This document shows, in pieces, positions 16,330-40,232 of a DNA stretch of 49,121 bases. A program made the position numbers and the translations under genes. Positions within the stretch are counted from its first letter, which is position 1. Every line of letters begins with the position of its first letter. The stretch is taken from the NCBI GenBank assembly GCA_023150415.1, contig JAKLKY010000012.1, positions 1 through 49,121 of the forward strand, read 5' to 3'. The DNA is from Alphaproteobacteria bacterium. Lineage in GTDB: Bacteria > Pseudomonadota > Alphaproteobacteria > Micavibrionales > Micavibrionaceae. Under the pieces are notes generated by a model that was not told where the DNA came from, searched no databases, and saw nothing but the letters and a program-made list of their open reading frames with translations.

Positions 16330-18038
16330 CCCTTGCCGTGGCGCAAGTCATATCGCTCACAGGCGACCGCAGCAGCGCACTCTATATCGCGCGCGGACGA
16401 TTGGTGCTGATTGGCGCTCTGTTCGCGCTGGCGTTCTTTCTTCTCGCGGTGCGGGCGGTGGATGTCACGGTCATGCAAGCACTGCCGCAAACTGAAACCG
16501 CCGCGCCCGTGCCCGCGGTCCAGGGTGCGCCGCTCGTGCGCCGTGCGGCGATCCTTGATCGCAACGGCGTTTTGCTGGCCACCAGTGTCAAGGCCGCTTC
16601 GCTTTATGCCGATCCCACCCTGATTGCCGATCCGAAAGGTGCTGCGCATAAAATCGTGCAGATTTTCCCCGATCTTAGAATCCAGGATATCATGCGCAGC
16701 CTCACCGCGCCGGGGCGTTTCCACTGGATCAAGCGCCATATCACGCCCGCGCAGCAAGCAGCCGTTCTACGCATTGGTGAACCAGGCCTGGCCTTCGCCG
16801 AGGATTATCGGCGCATCTATCCGCAAGGCGCTTTGGCCGGGCATTTACTGGGCTATACGAATGTCGATGGGCGGGGCCTTGCCGGGTTCGAGCGCGCCTT
16901 TGATGACACGCTTGCGCAGGGTCAGGACTCTGTGCGCCTGTCGCTTGATACGCGCCTGCAGCATGCGCTGCGTCGCGAGATCGAGAACACCATGCGGCAA
17001 TTCAATGCCAAGGCTGGAATCGGTACGATTTTGGATGCGAATACGGGCGAGGTTCTGGCTGGCGTATCCTTACCTGATTACGATCCCAATCACGTTGCCC
17101 GCGCAGATAAAGACGCTGTGTTCAATCGCCTGAGCCTGGGCGTGTATGAGCTAGGCTCGATTTTCAAGATCTTCTCGACCGCCGCACTGCTGGATAAAAT
17201 GAGCGACGCCTTATCCATGGAATTCGATGCGCGCCAGCCGATCCAGCACGGCCGGTTTTCCATCAAGGATTACCATCCACAGAACCGGGCGCTGAGCGTG
17301 CCCGAAGTGTTCATGTATTCATCGAATATCGGCTCGGCGCTGATGGGACAGGCCGTGGGCACCAAGCGCTTGCGCACTTTCTATGAACGTCTGGGATTGT
17401 TGACGCCCATGACATTTGAATCGCGTGAAATCGCGCGTCCACTGGTGCCCAGCCCGTGGCGCGATATTGATACACTGACAGCCGCCTATGGGCATGGCCT
17501 GGCCACAACGCCACTACAGACGGCTGCGGCTGTGGCCAGCATCGTCAATGGCGGCACCTTGGTGCGCCCGACTTTACTGGCAGGCGGCAGCGCCTATGGT
17601 CAGGGCGAGCGCATTGTCTCGGCGCAGACGGCGGCGCACATGCGCAGTTTGCTGCGTCTGGTTGTAACGGATGGAACCGGCGCAAAGGCCGATGTTCCGG
17701 GTTATTGGATCGGTGGCAAGACGGGTACTGCGGAAAAGGCCCAGGGCGGTGCATACAATCACGACCGTTTGTTGTCCTCTTTTATCGGGATTTTTCCGGC
17801 CCATGCGCCGCGCTATGTTGTTCTGATTGCAATCGACGAGCCGCGCGGAAACGCGCAAAGTCACTTTTATGCCACGGGCGGCTGGGTGGCCGCACCGGCG
17901 GTTGGACGCGTGGTTGCGGCTATGGGAGCTATTCTGGGATTGCCGCCGCAAAACAGCGATGCGCTCAAGGATCCGGCGCAAAGCATGCGCGCCTATATTT
18001 CCGCCAATGCCGCCACGCAGGGGGTACATGATGAATAA
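16326..18038 (+). CDS. ftsI: Septal peptidoglycan transpeptidase (PBP3)
   Basis: Class B penicillin-binding protein that cross-links peptidoglycan at the septum; 570 residues. One membrane anchor (about residues 26-47), then the pedestal with RRAAILDRNGVLLATSV, and the transpeptidase domain with all three motifs: SIFK (active-site serine, about residue 277), SSN (about 333) and KTGT (about 464). The N-terminus overlaps ftsL by four bases; its 3' end overlaps murE. Partner of FtsW (23037-24185). The C-terminus ends in a short Ala-rich tail with no extra PASTA domain. Nothing abnormal is seen. Confidence 0.97.
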   Translation: MTLAVAQVISLTGDRSSALYIARGRLVLIGALFALAFFLLAVRAVDVTVMQALPQTETAAPVPAVQGAPLVRRAAILDRNGVLLATSVKAASLYADPTLIADPKGAAHKIVQIFPDLRIQDIMRSLTAPGRFHWIKRHITPAQQAAVLRIGEPGLAFAEDYRRIYPQGALAGHLLGYTNVDGRGLAGFERAFDDTLAQGQDSVRLSLDTRLQHALRREIENTMRQFNAKAGIGTILDANTGEVLAGVSLPDYDPNHVARADKDAVFNRLSLGVYELGSIFKIFSTAALLDKMSDALSMEFDARQPIQHGRFSIKDYHPQNRALSVPEVFMYSSNIGSALMGQAVGTKRLRTFYERLGLLTPMTFESREIARPLVPSPWRDIDTLTAAYGHGLATTPLQTAAAVASIVNGGTLVRPTLLAGGSAYGQGERIVSAQTAAHMRSLLRLVVTDGTGAKADVPGYWIGGKTGTAEKAQGGAYNHDRLLSSFIGIFPAHAPRYVVLIAIDEPRGNAQSHFYATGGWVAAPAVGRVVAAMGAILGLPPQNSDALKDPAQSMRAYISANAATQGVHDE

Positions 18039-19464
18039 TAATATCAACAGCCTTGACCTTGCTTCGATCACAGGTCTGACGCAAGACAGCCGCGCCGTGC
18101 GTCCGGGATTTTTGTTTGCGGCACTGCCTGGCAGCAAGGCCGACGGCAGGCGTTATATCAACGACGCCATCCGCAACGGCGCCAGTGTCATTCTGGCACC
18201 GCGCGGCACCGGCATCGAAGCGGCGCATCTTTCGGGGGATGTAAAGCTGATCACCGATGAAAATCCCCGCCGCGCACTGGCTCTGCTGGCGGCGCGGTTC
18301 TATGGCCAGCAACCGCAGACCATCGTCGCGGTCACAGGCACCAACGGCAAGACATCGACCGTGCACTTCGTGAAGCAATTCTGGCTGGCGGCCGGATATA
18401 AGGCGGCCAGCATTGGCACGCTGGGCGTGCGCGCGCCGGGTCTGATCCGCTCCGGCTCGATGACCACACCCGATCCTGTTTCGCTGCATGCTGAACTGGC
18501 TGATCTTTGTGCTGTGGGGATCACGCATCTGGCGATGGAGGCATCCTCACACGGGCTCGATCAATATCGACTGGATGGTGTGCAGATCCGGGCGGCGGCG
18601 TTTACGAATCTCAGTCGCGATCATCTGGATTACCATCCCGACATGCAGGCGTATTTCGCTGCCAAGACGCGCCTGTTCACGGATATCCTGCAAGAGGGTG
18701 GCGCTGCAGTGCTCAACGCCGATGTGCCGGAATGCAAGCATCTGATCGACGCCATTGGTGGCCGCGCGCATGTCTTGACTTACGGCGCGGCGGGCAGGGA
18801 TTTCAAACTGCTGCAAGCCACGCCCACACCGCAGGGTCTGGATCTTCAGCTTGAGATTCAAGGCCAGGCGCATAATCTGGCATTGCCGCTCGCGGGTGCG
18901 TTTCAGGCAATGAATGTGCTGTGCGCGCTGGGGCTTGCGATCGCGTGCGCACCCGCGCATGCCCAAACGTTCATCGACGCTTTGCGCGCGCTGCAGGGCG
19001 TTCCGGGCCGGATGCAGCATGTGGGTGGACCCAAAGGCGCAGCTGTTTATATCGATTACGCGCATACACCCGATGCGCTGGAAACGGTTTTAAAAGCCCT
19101 GCGTCCGCACACCCAGCGGCGGTTGGTGGCATTGTTTGGCTGCGGCGGCGACCGGGATCGGGGCAAGCGTCCGCTGATGGGCAAGATCGCGCATGATCTT
19201 GCCGATACTGTGATAGTGACGGATGACAATCCGCGCTCGGAGCGGCCCGATTCCATCCGGGCGGCCATTCTGGCGGGGGCGCAGGGCGCGCGCGAAATCC
19301 CCGGCCGACGCGAAGCCATTGCCCAGGCCATCCAGGATCTGGCCGCGGGCGATGTGCTGGTGATCGCGGGCAAGGGCCATGAACAGGGACAAATTTTTGA
19401 AAATCACACCGAACCCTTTGACGACGCGCAAGAGGCGCGTAAAGTAATCGGAGAACTGACATGA
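18031..19464 (+). CDS. murE: UDP-MurNAc-L-Ala-D-Glu:meso-diaminopimelate ligase
   Basis: Cytosolic ATP-dependent ligase adding meso-diaminopimelate as third residue of the peptidoglycan stem. About 477 residues. Seen: N-terminal substrate domain (GLTQDSRAVRPGFLFAALPG, about residues 11-30), ATP loop VTGTNGKTSTVHFVK (about 101-115), THLAMEASSHGLDQYRLDG (about 165-183), NLSRDHLDYH, and in the C-terminal domain DNPRSERP (about 398-405), the DNPR motif that marks mDAP rather than lysine specificity. ATG 18031 (or 18028) follows the GGGGG-containing site and overlaps the ftsI stop; a much longer upstream frame reads back through ftsI and is not the real start. It overlaps the next gene by four bases. 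Confidence 0.97.
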   Translation: MNNNINSLDLASITGLTQDSRAVRPGFLFAALPGSKADGRRYINDAIRNGASVILAPRGTGIEAAHLSGDVKLITDENPRRALALLAARFYGQQPQTIVAVTGTNGKTSTVHFVKQFWLAAGYKAASIGTLGVRAPGLIRSGSMTTPDPVSLHAELADLCAVGITHLAMEASSHGLDQYRLDGVQIRAAAFTNLSRDHLDYHPDMQAYFAAKTRLFTDILQEGGAAVLNADVPECKHLIDAIGGRAHVLTYGAAGRDFKLLQATPTPQGLDLQLEIQGQAHNLALPLAGAFQAMNVLCALGLAIACAPAHAQTFIDALRALQGVPGRMQHVGGPKGAAVYIDYAHTPDALETVLKALRPHTQRRLVALFGCGGDRDRGKRPLMGKIAHDLADTVIVTDDNPRSERPDSIRAAILAGAQGAREIPGRREAIAQAIQDLAAGDVLVIAGKGHEQGQIFENHTEPFDDAQEARKVIGELT

Positions 19465-20438
19465 AAACACTCTGGACATCTTTAGAAGCGGATATCATCA
19501 CCGGCGGGCGCAGCACACAGCCCTGGCGCGCAACGGGTATAGCGCTGAACATGCGCCAGCTTCGTCCGGGCGATCTGTTCTTTGCGGCATCGTTGCGCGA
19601 AGCCGCGCAGGCGCTGGCGCATGGCGCTGCGGCCGCTGTGATTGCCAGCCGGGGCGGGGATATACTGCCGTCGGGGCCCATGATGCTGGTGCCCGATTTG
19701 TACGAGGCCTTGCGTGATCTGGCGCGCGCAGCGCGGTTTCGCACGCATGCGCAGATTTTGGCTGTGGCCGGGTTTACCTTGCGCGAGCAGTTGAAATCAG
19801 TCTTGAAGGCGCATGGGCATGTGCATGCGGCGGGGCCGCACTTCTCGCACAGTCTTGCCCTGTTGCCGGAGATGGCCGATTACGCGCTCTTTGGCTGCGT
19901 GCCGGGTTTGCGTCCTGATCTGTGCGTGATTACCGACGCGCGCTCGACCCAGATCGCCGCGTTGGAGGGGATGAATGTACAAGGGCGGGTGATCGTCTGC
20001 GCCGATGATCCTCATCATCTCGAGGCCGTAACGCGCGCCCGCGCGTTGGGCATCGCCGGAATTATCACGGTGCCTGAGGGCATGGGCCGCGGGCAAGACC
20101 TTGCATCATTCATCGCACATCTGGCCGGTGCGCCGCTCGGCGAATGGGGGAATGTGCATCTTTATCGTCCGCGCGCGCTCAGCTTCGGCGTTAATCAGGT
20201 TATTGAGATCGGCGGGCATAAGACGGCCATGCTCATAGGCCGCAAGGGTGGCATTGCGCTGCAGACAGCTTATGCGCCGTTTGGCTATATGTGTTCGGGC
20301 GGAGGGATCGCAACCGATGCACGCCCGCCGCGCGAATGGGAAGAGATTTGCCCGCAGGTTCTGGGGCCCGGTGATCGCGTCGTGTTTGATATACAGCAGC
20401 CCGAAGCCACTTTCGCCGGCGCGTTCCGGCGCTTGTAA
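19461..20438 (+). CDS. Degenerate MurF-like protein in the murF position (predicted non-catalytic)
   Basis: An intact 325-residue frame occupying the place of murF between murE (4-base overlap) and mraY (12-base gap). Residues about 1-60 match the MurF N-terminal domain (LWTSLEADIITGGRSTQPWR, RQLRPGDLFFAASL, AHGAAAAVIAS). At about residues 96-110, where MurF has the ATP loop G-x-x-GKT, it reads ILAVAGFTLREQLKSVL: glycine, lysine and threonine of the loop are gone. The central region keeps only weak similarity (LRPDLCVITDARSTQIAALEG; CADDPHHLEAVTRARALGIAGIITV). The ligase C-terminal domain with DDAYNxNP is absent, replaced by an unrelated tail ending LGPGDRVVFDIQQPEATFAG. MurF is normally about 450-480 residues. 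It should not ligate D-Ala-D-Ala; whether it binds substrate or a partner is unknown. A second MurF at 28246-29808 could supply the activity. Confidence 0.8.
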   Translation: MKTLWTSLEADIITGGRSTQPWRATGIALNMRQLRPGDLFFAASLREAAQALAHGAAAAVIASRGGDILPSGPMMLVPDLYEALRDLARAARFRTHAQILAVAGFTLREQLKSVLKAHGHVHAAGPHFSHSLALLPEMADYALFGCVPGLRPDLCVITDARSTQIAALEGMNVQGRVIVCADDPHHLEAVTRARALGIAGIITVPEGMGRGQDLASFIAHLAGAPLGEWGNVHLYRPRALSFGVNQVIEIGGHKTAMLIGRKGGIALQTAYAPFGYMCSGGGIATDARPPREWEEICPQVLGPGDRVVFDIQQPEATFAGAFRRL

Positions 20439-20450
20439 GGGAGAAATTTC

Positions 20451-21536
20451 ATGCTCTATCACCTGTTGCCCCAACTTGCAGATGAATTTATTGCCTTCAA
20501 CCTGTTTCGATATCTGACGTTTCGCACCGGCGGCGCGGTGATGACGGCGCTGTTCATCGGGCTTTATATCGGCCCTAAAATGATCCGCTGGCTCAAAAGC
20601 AAACAAAAGGAGGGTCAGCCCATTCGCGCTGATGGGCCTGAAGGCCATTTCATTAAGGCCGGCACGCCGACGATGGGCGGTTTGCTTATTCTGATTTCTG
20701 TGACGATATCGACGCTGCTGTGGGCGGATTTGCGCAATCCACTGATCTGGCTCGCGTTGCTGGTGATGTGCGGCTACGGCCTGATTGGCTTTGGCGATGA
20801 CTATCTCAAGCTGACAAAACGCAACAGCAAGGGTTTATCCGGGCGGTTGAAGATCGTCGCGCAGTTCGCAATTGGTCTGGTCGCAGCGCTGGGGATGATG
20901 TTTGTTCTCCCGTCTGATTTGGGCGCGCATGTGGCCATTCCATTCTTCAAGCATTTCTTTGTTTATCTGGGCTGGGTGTTTCCGTTCTGGGCGCTGTTTG
21001 TGATTATTGGCTCATCGAACGCGGTGAATTTGACAGACGGGCTCGATGGTCTTGCGATTGTGCCGGTGGCGATTGTCGCGGCGTGTTTTGGTTTGATCGC
21101 CTATCTTGTGGGGCGCGCGGATTTCGCCAATTATCTCAACATTCCCTTTGTTCCCGGGACGGGCGAACTTGCGGTTTTGTGCGGTGCGCTGATTGGCGGC
21201 GCGATGGCGTTCTTGTGGTATAACGCGCCGCCGGCGATGGTGTTCATGGGCGATACGGGATCGCTGGCGCTGGGCGGGGTTCTGGGCACGATTGCGCTGA
21301 TGACCAAGCAAGAGCTCGTCCTGGCAATCATCGGCGGGCTGTTCGTGCTGGAGACTGTGTCGGTGATCGTGCAGGTGGCATCATTTAAACTGACCGGAAA
21401 GCGCGTGTTCGCCATGGCGCCGCTGCATCACCATTTTGAGAAGAAAGGCTGGTCGGAGCCTACAATCGTCATCCGCTTCTGGATCATCGCTGTCGTTCTG
21501 GGCATTCTGGGTCTGGCGACTTTGAAACTGCGGTGA
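20451..21536 (+). CDS. mraY: Phospho-N-acetylmuramoyl-pentapeptide transferase
   Basis: Integral membrane enzyme forming lipid I from UDP-MurNAc-pentapeptide and undecaprenyl phosphate. 361 residues and about ten membrane segments. Motifs: [21 protein letters not shown] (here about residues 60-80), [21 protein letters not shown] with the Mg-binding aspartate pair (about 107-127), [14 protein letters not shown] (about 188-201), [12 protein letters not shown] (about 261-272) and the cytosolic [14 protein letters not shown] (about 322-335). A good GGGAGAA site lies before ATG 20451. The gene is followed by a palindromic element, so murD may have a separate promoter. Confidence 0.97.
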
Positions 21537-26754: not shown

Positions 26755-27640
26755 CTTGCTCGAATACGCCCCCATTGGCCGCGAGAGCTGGTTTGGCTGC
26801 GGCGGTGTGGCGGAGCGGTTGTTGGAGCCTGCCAGCATTTCCGAACTTCAGGCGTTTTTGCGATCTTCTTTTTTCCCCTCTCCCTACACTCTCATCGGCG
26901 GCTTGGCCAACACCATCGTCCGCGATGGCGGCGTGAAGGGGTTAACTATTCGTTTGGGCAAGGGTTGTGATTCCATTCACGTTTTGGATGAGACGACGCT
27001 GGAAATCGAGGCTGGCGCGCTGAACGGCTCGGTCGCGGCGGCGGCGCTCAAGGCCGGGATTGCGGGTCTGGAATTTCTCTCGGGTATACCAGGGCGCATC
27101 GGCGGTGCTGTGGCGATGAATGCTGGTGCCTATGGCACGGAGATGAAAGATGTTCTGGTTTCGGTGCAGGGCATGACTACGCAAGGGCAGGAATGGAACG
27201 GTGTGCCCGCCATGTCCTACCGCCATACGGATTTGCCTGAAGATACGATTGTCACATCCGTCATCCTGCGCGGCGTGAAGGAGAATTACGAAACGATCAA
27301 GGCGCGGATGAATGAGATCAAAACCAAACGCAACGCCACTCAGCCGATCAAGGAGCACACGGGCGGGTCAACCTTCGCCAATCCGTTGGATGAGGATTTG
27401 ATTCAAGCGGGCCTGGAGCCAGGCCTGCGCGCCTGGCAGATTGTCGAGCGCGTCGGCGGGCGGGGATTAAAAATCGGCGGCGCGATGATGTCGGAGCAGC
27501 ATTGCAATTTCATGATCAACACGGGCAATGCTTGCGCGGCCGATTTGGAAAATCTCGGCGAGGAAATCCGCAAGCGCGTGCTAGATCAATGCGGGCTGGA
27601 TTTACGATGGGAGATCAAGCGGATTGGCGTCAGCTTGTGA
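26726..27640 (+). CDS. murB: UDP-N-acetylenolpyruvoylglucosamine reductase
   Basis: FAD-dependent reductase making UDP-MurNAc. About 304 residues from ATG 26726 (GTG 26747 is an alternative; longer frames reach back into murC). FAD-binding part: NTIVRDGGVKGLTIRLG (about residues 54-70) and SGIPGRIGGAVAMNAGAYG (about 113-131). Catalytic part: SYRHTDLP with the conserved Tyr-Arg, GGSTFANP with the proton-donating serine (about 212-219), and KIGGAMMSEQHCNFMINTGN (about 250-269). The usual GSNLLV strand before VRDGGV reads GLANTIV, a mild departure. The gene ends 11 bases inside the convergent methyltransferase-like gene. This is the end of the first plus-strand block of the dcw cluster. Confidence 0.95.
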   Translation: MLPKQKPVRDLLEYAPIGRESWFGCGGVAERLLEPASISELQAFLRSSFFPSPYTLIGGLANTIVRDGGVKGLTIRLGKGCDSIHVLDETTLEIEAGALNGSVAAAALKAGIAGLEFLSGIPGRIGGAVAMNAGAYGTEMKDVLVSVQGMTTQGQEWNGVPAMSYRHTDLPEDTIVTSVILRGVKENYETIKARMNEIKTKRNATQPIKEHTGGSTFANPLDEDLIQAGLEPGLRAWQIVERVGGRGLKIGGAMMSEQHCNFMINTGNACAADLENLGEEIRKRVLDQCGLDLRWEIKRIGVSL

Positions 27641-28232
27641 AAAAAGTCGGCACCCATCCGGCTGTCTGCAGATATTCCACCAGTTCGATCACCGGCAACG
27701 CGGCCAGCCACCAAACCGCATCGGCAAAGGCTTTGTTCAGGAATCGCGGCGTGAGTTCAGTTGTTTGCGGCGCATTGTAATTTGAAAAGCGCGGCCAGAG
27801 CGCGGGAACGCGCTGCATATAGTCCGTGAACGCTGCGCCGAATTTTTCCAGCAGGAATGATTCCTCTCGTGCGATCAGTTGCAGATAAATCAGCAAGAAA
27901 AACATCGGCAGGCCGATCATGACAACCAGATGGTTGGACACCAGGGCCACGCCCGTAATACCAATCAGGGAAAAGAAATATAACGGATTGCGCATTAAGG
28001 AATAAATGCCGTGTGTTACCAGACGGTCATTTTTAAAACCGCCTAAAAAGGCGGTGGCGTAGACGCGTCCCATCGCGCAGATGGCGATCAGAAAATTCCC
28101 GACCAACTCAAGAACTTCATGATAGGCGCTGTCATCCTGCCAGTACTGGCGAGAAAACAGGACGATCAGCAAGGTTGATATCAGGGCGGCTTTGGAGGCC
28201 AGAATGCGGCTTTTATTGAGATTTTTTGCCAT
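27630..28232 (-). CDS. Isoprenylcysteine carboxyl methyltransferase-like membrane protein
   Basis: About 200 residues from ATG 28232 (a longer frame from 28286 would overlap the upstream gene). Membrane helices at about residues 8-27, 37-55, 80-112. The ICMT/PEMT signature is clear: THGIYSLMRNPLYFFSLIGI (about residues 72-91) and REESFLLEKFGAAFTDYMQR (about 122-141). Family members methylate carboxyl or amino groups of membrane-embedded or lipid substrates using SAM; most bacterial ones have no known substrate. Prenylated CaaX proteins are not expected in bacteria, so the eukaryotic role should not be transferred. It is 13 bases downstream of the membrane-anchored murF on the same strand and probably cotranscribed. 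Confidence 0.85.
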   Translation of the reverse strand: MAKNLNKSRILASKAALISTLLIVLFSRQYWQDDSAYHEVLELVGNFLIAICAMGRVYATAFLGGFKNDRLVTHGIYSLMRNPLYFFSLIGITGVALVSNHLVVMIGLPMFFLLIYLQLIAREESFLLEKFGAAFTDYMQRVPALWPRFSNYNAPQTTELTPRFLNKAFADAVWWLAALPVIELVEYLQTAGWVPTFFTS

Positions 28233-28245
28233 TTTATTTGCTCGT

Positions 28246-29808
28246 CTATAGTTTTGGCACGCGCTCATAAATATCAGGCAAATCATTCTCCAGCAAGATC
28301 ACATCGCCTTCGCGAGCGTTGGCTTCGATCCATGCGGAGGCCTGCGAAAAGTTTTCCATGGGCACAAGCTGCGCGCCCTTCCCGGTTGCTTCGAATCCTG
28401 CGACGAAGCTGGGGATACGCTGCGGCCCGACCACCAGCGCGATGTCGCAGACTTTGCCCGCGTGCTGTCCGATGGTGCTGTGCGCTTCCTCATGCGCGGC
28501 GCCAAGTTCGACCATGCCGGGTGTGACGAGAATTTTCCGCGCGGCGGGGTTGAGTGTTGCCAGCAGATCCAGCGCGCAGCGAAAACCCACGGGGTTTGAA
28601 TTATAGGCATCATCAATGATGGTGATGCCGCCGGTGCGCTTTTTGACCTCCAGCCGGTGAGCGATTTGCGGCACGGATTGCAAGGCGGTGATGACGCTGT
28701 CGGATGGCAGGCCGAGGCTCAGCGCCGCAGCGAAGGTCAGCGCGACATTGTGCGCATGATGCAGGCCATAGAGCGGGACGGAGAAATTATACTCCTTGTC
28801 CTTCCAGCGGAGACTCATCTGAATGCCGTCCGACATTTGCACGGCGCGGGTGATGTGCACGTCGTTTTCCTTCAGATAGGTGATATCATTGGGCCGCACT
28901 TCGCCCGCGATGACAAAACGTTCTTCATGCGCATCTTTGAAGGCGCGGGGGATGGGGAAGCGCAGTGTGCGCTCATGCGCGACGACGATTCCATTCTTTT
29001 CGATGGTGGCATGGGCAAGCTCGTATTTCGCATCCGCCACGGTCTCGAGCGTTTTAAAGCGCTCATAATGCGCGTGGCCGATGTTGATGGATCCAGGGCC
29101 ATAGGCGCCCATCTCCACCACGAAATACTGATGTGTCTCATCCAGATTTTCGCGAATGATGCGGGTGACGCCCATCGGGGTGTTGACGCTGCCCGGCGTG
29201 ATAAGCGTGGGGGCATGCATTTTCAGCACATGGCCCAGCATATGCTTGACCGAGGTCTTGCCGAACGAGCCGGTGATGGCGATGACTTTCGGCTTGAGCC
29301 GCGCCAGTTTCTCATGCGCTTGCGCCCAGAGTTTTTTCTGCACGCTGTCTTCATAGGGCTGCAGCGCCATATTCCCCAGCACCAGAAAAAGAGGCATCGC
29401 CTGCACCGGAATAATCCACAGCAATGGCCAGCCGATAATGGTCAGGATCATGCCGATCAGTGCGGCAACGGCCAGCGCTGCACCCAAAATGCGTTTGACA
29501 CGATCGGTCAGGACGAGCTTCTTTTTCGCCTCCCGCGTGGGGTCTTTTTCCAAAACCGTGATGGTCAGGAACGCGAAGAAGGTCAGCGCCTGAGTCATGA
29601 AGCTGGAGAGGAACAGCGCCACAATTCCGCATGCCACGAGCATCGCACTAAGACGCGTGTCGAAAACGCGGTTGACCAGAACCCAGCGCAAAAAGCGCTC
29701 GCTGTCATACTCTTCCTGCTGATAGGCATGAAGATAGGTGAGCAACCTGCGCGCGGCGAAGGCGAGATAGGCGATGAAGACAAGCGGTGGGGCGAAATAT
29801 TCGATCAT
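28246..29808 (-). CDS. murF: Membrane-anchored UDP-MurNAc-tripeptide:D-Ala-D-Ala ligase (MurF-type)
   Basis: 520 residues. The first about 155 residues hold four or five membrane segments (about 5-22, 53-85, 108-128, 129-148), an extension that ordinary MurF lacks. The Mur ligase core follows: ATP loop ITGSFGKTSVKHMLGHVL (about 177-194), VEMGAYGPGSI (about 225-235), HRLEVKKRTGG and DDAYNSNPVGFRCALDLL (about 397-414), then GMVELGAAHEEAH (about 426-438). These are MurF signatures (DDAYNxNP, GxMxELG). The usual stretch between the glycine-rich EMGAYGPGSI and the HxERF segment is short here (SINIGHAHYERF), about 16 residues less than I expect. Operon: overlaps the upstream hydrolase by four bases. 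It is the likely source of MurF activity because the gene in the murF position is degenerate. Confidence 0.88.
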   Translation of the reverse strand: MIEYFAPPLVFIAYLAFAARRLLTYLHAYQQEEYDSERFLRWVLVNRVFDTRLSAMLVACGIVALFLSSFMTQALTFFAFLTITVLEKDPTREAKKKLVLTDRVKRILGAALAVAALIGMILTIIGWPLLWIIPVQAMPLFLVLGNMALQPYEDSVQKKLWAQAHEKLARLKPKVIAITGSFGKTSVKHMLGHVLKMHAPTLITPGSVNTPMGVTRIIRENLDETHQYFVVEMGAYGPGSINIGHAHYERFKTLETVADAKYELAHATIEKNGIVVAHERTLRFPIPRAFKDAHEERFVIAGEVRPNDITYLKENDVHITRAVQMSDGIQMSLRWKDKEYNFSVPLYGLHHAHNVALTFAAALSLGLPSDSVITALQSVPQIAHRLEVKKRTGGITIIDDAYNSNPVGFRCALDLLATLNPAARKILVTPGMVELGAAHEEAHSTIGQHAGKVCDIALVVGPQRIPSFVAGFEATGKGAQLVPMENFSQASAWIEANAREGDVILLENDLPDIYERVPKL

Positions 29809-30545
29809 GGCTTCGTGCGAATAAAATCCTTGATATGCCGGGCGGTAAGATGCCGCCCCGGTCCCAGAACACTATAATGGTCTTGTCCGGGCAGTAAAAC
29901 CATTTGTGCGCCCGTGATCAGGCGGGTATAATGCTGGCCGATGGCGGGGGGCGTTTCGCTATCGTTTTCACCATAAATCAACAGTGTCGGGCAGCGGATT
30001 TGCGCGGCTTGCGGGGCCAGGTTTTCGCGGATCACATTCAAGAAAATCGGGCGCAGTGGCCCTGCGTTTTGATAGTCGCGGCTGCCGAACCACGCGGCCA
30101 GCTTGTCTTTATCAAGGGGCAAGCGCTTGAGGATTTTATAGGCGCGGACTTTCGCCTGCATCCATAGCTTTTGCCACAGCGGACGCGGGCGGGGCAGGCC
30201 AGCGGCGGCAATCAGGATGAGTTTTTCAACCAGCTCTGGATGGCGCGCCGCGATCTGGACGCCCACGCGCCCGCCGAAGGAATGGCCGATCCAGATGATT
30301 TTTCCGATGTTCTGCGCCTTGAGAAATTCTGCCATATGATCGGCGTAATCTTCTGTCGTCCAAGGCCCTGATGGCAGGGGTGAGGCGCCAAAGCCGGGGA
30401 AATCAATCGCGATTTGCGGCGCGGCCTGCTCAAAGGATTGTGCCAGCGCGGCCATCGCCCGGTGGTCCTGGCCCCAGCCATGCGCCCAAAGCATCGGGGT
30501 TGCTGCGCCGCTGCCGATTTTAACAAAGTGCATGTTCAGGGTCAT
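29805..30545 (-). CDS. Alpha/beta-fold hydrolase
   Basis: 246-residue cytosolic alpha/beta hydrolase. Oxyanion-hole region AHGWGQDHRAM (about residues 21-31), nucleophile elbow GHSFGGRVG (serine about residue 96), acid in YGENDSETPP (about 194-203) and catalytic histidine in GQDHYSVL (about 222-229). The substrate is not evident. It is the first gene of a minus-strand operon with the membrane MurF (ATGA overlap) and the methyltransferase-like gene, so a role in envelope or precursor metabolism is conceivable but unproven. ATG 30545 and ATG 30533 are both possible starts; the former keeps the whole first strand. Confidence 0.87.
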   Translation of the reverse strand: MTLNMHFVKIGSGAATPMLWAHGWGQDHRAMAALAQSFEQAAPQIAIDFPGFGASPLPSGPWTTEDYADHMAEFLKAQNIGKIIWIGHSFGGRVGVQIAARHPELVEKLILIAAAGLPRPRPLWQKLWMQAKVRAYKILKRLPLDKDKLAAWFGSRDYQNAGPLRPIFLNVIRENLAPQAAQIRCPTLLIYGENDSETPPAIGQHYTRLITGAQMVLLPGQDHYSVLGPGRHLTARHIKDFIRTKP

Positions 30546-38510: not shown

Positions 38511-40232
38511 ATGCTGGTCTCCCTCACCATCCAGAACGTCGTTTTGATCGAACAGCTCAGCCTTACGCTTGAATCCGGCCTGTGTGCGCTGACGGGGGAA
38601 ACTGGCGCGGGAAAATCTATTTTGCTGGATGCGCTGGGTCTGGCGCTTGGCGCGCGTAGCGAGGCGGGGCTGGTACGCGCAGAGGCGGAGCAAGCGCAGG
38701 TGAGCGCCGTGTTTGAGCTTCCTGCTTCTCATCCTTCGCTTATTATCTTACATAATTCAAATCTTTTTATTGAATCTGGAACAGAAGGACATCAAGCAGA
38801 GGGACATCAAGCAGAGGGACATCAAGCAGAGGGACATCAAAGACGGGGCCTGATCCTCCGCCGCTCGATCGGTCGTGATGGACGCAGTCGTGCGTTCATC
38901 AATGACCAGCCGGTGTCGGTGGGCTTGTTGCGGCAGGTTGGTGAAACGCTGGTGGAAATTCACGGTCAGTTCGAGACACAAGGCTTGTTGAACCCGGCGA
39001 CGCACGGCGCTTTGCTTGATGATTACGCCGGCGTGGCGGGCCGCACGGAAACATTCTGGCGGGCGTGGCAAGATGCGCAGCAGGCTTTGGCTGATCATCG
39101 CGCCGCCGTCGAATCCGCCCGGCGAGAGGAGGATTATCTGCGTACTTCGGTGCAGGATCTGGATTCATTGGCGCCGCAGTCCGGTGAGGAAACGCACTTG
39201 GCGGCGCGGCGCGAGCGCCTGATGCACCGCACGCGCGTTCTGGAGGCGTTGAGCGCGGCGGATGAGATTCTTTCGGCTGATTCCGATCCGCTGCGCAAGG
39301 CGGCGGCGATTGTGCAGCGCGTGGCGGACAAGGCCGGGCCGGAGGCTGAGCAGGCGATAGCGGCGTTGGATCGCGCGATGGAAGAAGTGACGCAAGCGCA
39401 AGGCCTTCTTCAGAGCCTTTCAACAGATTTGCAAGAGGGTGAGGGCGATCTGGAGAGTGTGGATGAGCGCCTGCATGAATTGCGCGCTCAGGCCCGCAAG
39501 CATCAATGCGCACCCGATGATCTGCCGCGCATCCGCGATGAATTGGCGGGTCGTTTGAATGCGCTGGAGGCGGGTGAGGACAGGCTGGCGGATTTGATTC
39601 GCGCTGCCGATCAAGCGCGCACCGCATTTGTGAAGGAAGCGCAGCAGGTTCATGCAGCGCGGCTCAAGGCCGGACAGAAGCTCGATAGGCTCATGAAGGC
39701 GGAGCTGGTGCCGCTCAAGCTCGAGAAGGCACAATTCATGACGGCGGTGGAAGAATTGCCGGAAGCCGAATGGGGCCCACAGGGGATCAGCCGCGTGCGC
39801 TTTTTGGTGGCCACCAATCCCGGCGCGACGCCGGGGCCGCTGAACAAGATCGCCTCGGGCGGGGAAATGGCGCGGTTTATGCTGGCGCTGAAGGTTGTCA
39901 TGGCGAAAGTCGGTGCTGCGCCCACGCTGATTTTCGATGAAGTCGATACCGGTATTGGCGGTGCGGTGGCGGATGCTGTGGGGGAACGGCTGGCCGCGCT
40001 GGGCCAGAGCCATCAGGTGCTGGTCGTCACCCATGCGCCGCAGGTGGCGGCGCGCGCGGCACATCATTACATTGTCCGCAAGGAAGGCGCCAAAGCCCTG
40101 AAAACCAACGTTATTGTTCTTGAGGATGCGCGCGCCCGGCGCGAGGAAATCGCCCGCATGCTCTCCGGCGCGTCCATCACGGACGAAGCCCGTGCGGCAG
40201 CGGATCGGTTGCTGGCGGCAGGCAATGCTTGA
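38511..40232 (+). CDS. recN: DNA repair protein RecN
   Basis: SMC-like ATPase acting in double-strand break repair. 573 residues with ribosome-binding site AAGGAGG before ATG 38511. Walker A ALTGETGAGKSILLDALGLA (about residues 27-46), central coiled coil (about 185-390), ABC signature NKIASGGEMARFMLALK (about 445-461), Walker B APTLIFDEVDTGIGG (about 470-484) and the VLVVTHAPQVAARA switch. Odd feature: about residues 93-110 consist of four tandem copies of EGHQA, encoded by a 15-base DNA repeat, inserted just before the LILRRSIGRDGRSRAFIND strand of the head domain, in a locally AT-rich stretch. Confidence 0.95.
   Translation: MLVSLTIQNVVLIEQLSLTLESGLCALTGETGAGKSILLDALGLALGARSEAGLVRAEAEQAQVSAVFELPASHPSLIILHNSNLFIESGTEGHQAEGHQAEGHQAEGHQRRGLILRRSIGRDGRSRAFINDQPVSVGLLRQVGETLVEIHGQFETQGLLNPATHGALLDDYAGVAGRTETFWRAWQDAQQALADHRAAVESARREEDYLRTSVQDLDSLAPQSGEETHLAARRERLMHRTRVLEALSAADEILSADSDPLRKAAAIVQRVADKAGPEAEQAIAALDRAMEEVTQAQGLLQSLSTDLQEGEGDLESVDERLHELRAQARKHQCAPDDLPRIRDELAGRLNALEAGEDRLADLIRAADQARTAFVKEAQQVHAARLKAGQKLDRLMKAELVPLKLEKAQFMTAVEELPEAEWGPQGISRVRFLVATNPGATPGPLNKIASGGEMARFMLALKVVMAKVGAAPTLIFDEVDTGIGGAVADAVGERLAALGQSHQVLVVTHAPQVAARAAHHYIVRKEGAKALKTNVIVLEDARARREEIARMLSGASITDEARAAADRLLAAGNA
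38787..38840 (+). repeat. 15-base tandem repeat inside recN
   Basis: Unit GGACATCAAGCAGAG at 38787-38801, 38802-38816, 38817-38831, and nine bases of a fourth copy (GGACATCAA) to 38840, without mismatch. It is in frame, encoding repeated EGHQA. Perfect identity suggests recent slippage expansion. Confidence 0.9.

Follow-up and report, generated by a model that had tools for sequence, protein, structure and literature searches.

The Mur ligases are essential targets for antibacterials, and it has long been asked whether they assemble into a physical complex inside cells. MurF, the UDP-MurNAc-tripeptide–D-Ala-D-Ala ligase (PDB 4CVM, 1GG4; TIGR01143), is a protein of ~480 residues with which the protein described here shares gene position and descent. 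In Bordetella, MurE and MurF form one protein (PDB 8F5D) with both halves active, and its complex with MurG has been measured (PMC6420597). MurT, the Mur-ligase homologue of the MurT/GatD lipid II amidotransferase, amidates D-Glu together with GatD; its substrate is lipid I/II, not the soluble UDP precursors, and does not carry the uridine bound by the Mur N-terminal domain (PMC6085368). In plants, a Mur ligase descended from MurE has become a structural subunit of a transcription complex, and in most streptophytes it keeps many catalytic residues (PMC12681378). No report of a MurF pseudoenzyme, a Mur ligase pseudoenzyme or Micavibrio MurF turned up in the literature searched, which covered subscription journals only sparsely.

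The DNA analysed here (the window) is a 49,121-nucleotide stretch of a Micavibrionaceae draft genome (1.92 Mb, 92.5% complete), whose named relatives by sequence are Micavibrio sp. UBA1672, M. aeruginosavorus CP066681 and a MAG labelled 'Micavibrionaceae'. It carries a dcw cluster in the order rsmH, ftsL, ftsI, murE, the open reading frame at 19461-20438, mraY, murD, ftsW, murG, murC and murB, followed by three genes on the opposite strand and then ddl, ftsQ, ftsA and ftsZ; dcw genes without a profile match were named by reading their sequences. The original prediction, of an intact 325-codon frame between murE and mraY that keeps its coupling to murE and leaves mraY a ribosome-binding site, holds: the frame opens with ATG, its start overlaps the murE stop codon (ATGA, 19461-19464), and GGGAG lies at 20439-20443, upstream of the mraY ATG. 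The features discussed below are collected in Table 1. Elsewhere in the window, a recN-like frame (38511-40232) contains an in-frame tandem repeat of EGHQA (EGHQAEGHQAEGHQAEGHQ).

Table 1. Coordinates of the dead MurF, its parts and associated genes in the window
Feature	Position	Strand	Basis
murE	18028..19464	+	Pfam Mur N, M and C domains
Dead MurF, 325 aa	19461..20438	+	MurF profiles; fold match Z 19 over residues 2-225; catalytic motifs gone
Mur N-terminal domain, residues 1-98, fold kept	19461..19754	+	16/24 classical invariant positions kept
Shrunken Mur middle (ATPase) domain, residues 99-226, catalytic loops deleted	19755..20138	+	
Former P-loop, GFTLRE in place of GSVGKT	19770..19787	+	
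Eroded MurF C-terminal region, residues 227-325	20139..20435	+	hhalign E 4e-6; AF2 confidence under 50
Tail motif EEICPQVLGPGDRVVFD, counterpart of classical LAEIVPDVLTPGDVVMVKG	20340..20390	+	
mraY	20451..21536	+	Ortholog search
TM-MurF: membrane segments with Mur middle and C domains; lacks the Mur N-domain and is presumed to be an active MurF	28246..29808	-	Pfam, motifs
Alpha/beta hydrolase preceding TM-MurF in a conserved two-gene cassette	29805..30545	-	Pfam; pair repeated in relatives

Profile, fold and synteny agree on the homology of the 19461-20438 product to MurF, and we consider its reading as a MurF by descent, turned in place into a pseudoenzyme, to be well supported. The NCBIfam MurF models cover its N-terminal 130-140 residues: PRK14093 matches residues 3-144 (E 1.2e-20), whilst TIGR01143 matches with E 2.5e-7 and 30 bits, short of its curated cut-off of 288.6 bits. 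The proposed MurF-like N-terminus is thereby borne out. Searched by itself, the protein gave no Mur domain in Pfam and nothing relevant among PDB sequences; its descent was detected via relatives, by profile-profile comparison and by fold. Residues 3-323 align with sister-genus dead MurFs (E 2e-43), which in turn align over their whole length with classical MurF from this order (E 9e-68). An AlphaFold2 model built with 26 relatives is confident for residues 1-200 and fair to residue 226, with no confident model for the remainder. Its best PDB matches are both MurF (4cvm, Z 19.2, rmsd 2.9 over 219 aligned residues; 1gg4, Z 19.0), with residues 1-225 as the predicted matching region. The N-terminal and middle folds (Z 19) are shared with the ligase, and the C-terminus is a remnant. 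The plant subunit is matched at Z 11-13; it differs in deriving from MurE, not MurF.

The catalytic apparatus of the ligase is gone. Residues 104-109 of the window protein read GFTLRE, against GSxGKT in each of the 18 classical MurFs examined, which confirms the missing ATP-loop lysine. Across nine motifs the window keeps none, whereas the same 18 proteins, taken from genomes without TM-MurF, keep all bar scattered single changes. In the middle domain NNHxG, ExGMNH, HxxxF and AKAEI are deleted or replaced, and DxSYNAxP and GDMxELG are absent from the C-terminal domain; the deletions that remove NNHWG, most of ExGMNH and most of HxxxFxS are found in the window and in eight long dead MurFs. At 98 positions invariant among 15 classical MurFs, the window keeps 11/43 in the middle domain and 6/31 in the C-terminal domain. 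Those kept over the whole protein are mainly glycine, alanine and leucine, and no invariant lysine, glutamate or asparagine is among them. D36, G56 and H57 of the N-terminal domain are lost in the window and in all eight long dead MurFs. Judged on these motifs, it is well supported that the protein is catalytically dead.

The tail had been thought not to derive from MurF. This is not borne out: residues 226-325 align with the C-terminus of the longer sister-genus dead MurFs at the E-value given in Table 1, and the segment EEICPQVLGPGDRVVF aligns with the classical MurF segment LAEIVPDVLTPGDVVMV, which rules out a foreign tail. The C-terminal domain has therefore been eroded, not replaced. The related claim that the ligase domain is missing stands in part, in that its motifs are gone and Pfam recognises no Mur domain, but an eroded MurF C-terminus remains.

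A second MurF-like protein had been noticed in the window, and the candidate replacement enzyme is indeed present there: besides MurC, MurD, MurE and the dead MurF, it is the only MurF-like protein in the genome, and a genome search found no second classical MurF above the cut-off. We refer to it as TM-MurF, a name coined in this analysis. Pfam recognises only Mur middle and C-terminal domains, behind hydrophobic N-terminal segments, and the protein has a P-loop (GSFGKT, residue 180) and DAYNSNP at residue 400 (D-YNxNP motif), consistent with a putatively active enzyme. Its best family is TIGR01143 (188 bits, under the 288.6 cut-off) and its match to MurT is marginal. The likeness to MurT, which concerns TM-MurF only, lies in a Mur-ligase homologue with a possibly lipid-linked substrate; TM-MurF differs in scoring best as MurF, and in its membrane segments and D-YNxNP motif. 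The alpha/beta hydrolase gene precedes TM-MurF in all relatives with flanks read, and in most of these the pair lies between murB and ddl, or beside ddl. The cassette (28246-30545) recurs in other Alphaproteobacteria. A phospholipid/isoprenylcysteine methyltransferase-like gene (27630-28286, minus strand) overlaps the TM-MurF 3′ end in the window and was not seen adjoining TM-MurF in the relatives read.

Among 104 Micavibrionaceae genomes, 57 have a classical MurF (53 above the cut-off, four with truncated or lower-scoring matches), 43 have only TM-MurF, and none has both; the same mutual exclusion holds in 58 genomes of the order. Four genomes have neither: G106, which carries a short dead form, G015, G025 and G069. 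An intact dead murF frame lies in the murE-mraY interval of 38 of the 39 readable TM-MurF genomes of the family, as well as in G106 and G015, two fragmented genomes in which TM-MurF was not found. The sole readable exception is G027, and the locus was not found in G016, G020, G086 and G109; the genomes read are drafts, mostly MAGs. The G015 dead MurF (375 aa; L016, minus strand, reverse-complement 1501-2625) comes from a genome that is 84% complete in 290 contigs. G025, a family member that is 96% complete, gave no match to MraY, MurF or TM-MurF, and may have lost peptidoglycan synthesis or have a very divergent form of it. In f2 and f7 of the order (G037, G043, G055) the dead murF is gone.

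The dead proteins fall into three size classes. Nine genomes encode 414-430 residues, counting G117, for which the retrieved sequence lacks the start of the gene; the window, G018, G033 and G015 encode 325-375; and 27 genomes, counting G084, encode 141-157, consisting of the C-terminal domain behind a short N-terminal stretch, with no Mur N-domain. Against the short form, the C-domain of MurF scores E 1e-14 and that of the long dead form E 1e-36. Its predicted model is beta-rich and of middling confidence, and neither Foldseek nor VIA-align gave a clear PDB match for it, which is not evidence of a new fold. The G117 locus has an extra hydrophobic frame of 107 residues between the dead MurF and mraY (L092, reverse-complement 1188-1508).

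Catalytic decay has probably occurred repeatedly within the Micavibrionaceae, since G018 and G033 group with classical genomes and not with the other dead-MurF genomes (FastTree supports of 0.88-0.98 nearby). The short form may have arisen once or several times: the free tree leaves these proteins ungrouped, but holding them together gives an AU p of 0.084, and a more careful subset tree has a poorly resolved backbone. Outside the order, TM-MurF was found in 20 of ~380 sampled Alphaproteobacteria; three of these also keep a MurF above the cut-off, so that the two proteins can coexist. The fate of the old gene varies among them. In G276 and G373 (one family) and in G174 (another) the MurE C-terminus is fused to a dead MurF that comprises the N-domain and some of the middle domain, an arrangement resembling the Bordetella fusion, from which it differs in that the MurF half is dead. 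The MurFs of G342 and G289 are long and have lost part of their catalytic motifs, in G505 and G239 the in-place MurF is largely intact and stands alongside TM-MurF, and in further genomes the old murF gene is lost.

Selection on the dead gene was assessed by Nei-Gojobori dN/dS in close pairs of relatives. Values lie between 0.03 and 0.13 for long and short forms alike: 0.042 for G010/G118 (the 426-430 aa pair), 0.05-0.13 among G029, G119 and G120, 0.047 for G100/G101, 0.03 for G103/G104 (at high dS), 0.08 for G007/G085 and 0.075 for G005/G070. In the same pairs, raw pN/pS of the dead gene is ~1x to ~4x that of mraY, and the closest long-form pair shows constraint across all three domains. Purifying selection on the dead murF in relatives is thus well supported at the level of sequence. 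The dead murF is therefore not a decaying gene there, and a recent pseudogene is ruled out: frames are intact, dN/dS is far below 1, and the random decay that the original prediction had named as contrary evidence is not seen. The idea that the frame is kept by selection consequently stands for the relatives; for the window, which was compared with sister genera, selection on its own branch is what we infer. Residues 1-223 are 36-44% identical to the sister genera, from which the window differs by 0.65-0.81 synonymous differences per site, near saturation. When neutral substitution was simulated in 2000 runs per distance, a 325-codon frame survived in 36 of them at 0.25 substitutions per site and in one at 1.0.

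The account that we favour, with moderate confidence, is that TM-MurF took over D-Ala-D-Ala addition and that the former MurF persists in a non-catalytic capacity, most likely as a scaffold or binding subunit of the MurE/MraY/MurG machinery. That TM-MurF, encoded with the hydrolase and usually next to ddl, took over this step is a well supported reading of the sequences. The murF between murE and mraY lost its catalytic motifs, largely via small deletions, as the alignments show. Its frame stayed intact under purifying selection even as it shrank, as seen in relatives and presumed for the window, in some lineages to ~150 residues of C-terminal domain. The dead MurF most likely acts without catalysis, as a binding or scaffold subunit in contact with MurE and with MraY or MurG next to it, and active MurF may have filled this role alongside its chemistry. 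A probable non-catalytic role at the site where MurE, MraY and MurG work draws its best support from retention of the gene at the murE-mraY position and from the separate MurE fusions, and binding of MurG by Bordetella MurE-MurF gives a structural role for MurF a precedent. Of the roles raised originally, scaffolding or regulation may apply; substrate binding seems unlikely, since the N-domain has lost invariant residues and is missing from the short forms. More tentatively, TM-MurF may use a membrane-linked tripeptide precursor, as MurT uses lipid I and II, because it lacks the UDP-binding N-domain.

The part that is kept differs by lineage: short forms keep the C-domain, MurE-fused forms the N-domain and part of the middle, and the window the N-terminal and middle domains well and the C-domain poorly. 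No part is common to all lineages, which weakens the idea of one conserved interface and has to be accounted for by any scaffold model, and the absence of the gene in f2, f7, G027 and several other TM-MurF genomes indicates that its role is dispensable in some backgrounds. We regard a broader generalisation as doubtful, namely that MurF has a conserved non-catalytic role in the Mur machinery, so that when a membrane MurF takes over the chemistry its predecessor tends to be retained as a dead scaffold, adjoining MurE or fused to it and shrinking to a minimal domain, with TM-MurF adding D-Ala-D-Ala at a lipid-linked stage.

The dead MurF might alternatively complete TM-MurF as a split enzyme, supplying in trans, for example, an N-terminal domain or an activating surface. 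The fold that TM-MurF lacks is kept by the window and the long dead MurFs, and 38 of 40 carriers of the dead gene in the family also have TM-MurF; but the N-domain has lost classical invariant positions, the short forms have no such domain, and in several TM-MurF genomes a dead MurF is absent altogether. Such an arrangement is possible for the long forms and cannot be general, and we judge it improbable. Marginally less probable is recruitment to a new function outside the Mur pathway, with the position kept only for operon expression. The beta-rich short form without a clear fold match and the lineage-dependent choice of retained parts would suit it, but where kept in the family the gene always lies between murE and mraY, and in two other families it is fused to MurE. 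That the window copy is itself a gene in retirement, the copies of relatives being functional, we consider distinctly improbable: it is shorter than its long relatives, has a poorly predicted, weakly conserved C-terminus and was compared with sister genera alone, but its frame is open despite near-saturated synonymous change, under which neutral frames mostly break, and residues 1-223 retain both their identity to the sister genera and a confident MurF fold. An inert spacer that only couples murE and mraY translation would explain the overlap with murE and the 8-base overlap of the gene end with the mraY start in many relatives, but is very hard to reconcile with selection at the amino-acid level or with f7, which does without the gene and has murE directly overlapping mraY.

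A dead murF kept by selection suggests that MurF has a function besides catalysis, and evolution appears to have split the chemistry of MurF from this other role in several lineages. The ~150-residue forms indicate which part is sufficient in their lineages, and offer a small protein for pull-downs and structures. TM-MurF in turn raises the question of D-Ala-D-Ala addition on a lipid carrier; if true, addition at the lipid-linked stage would reorder the textbook pathway.
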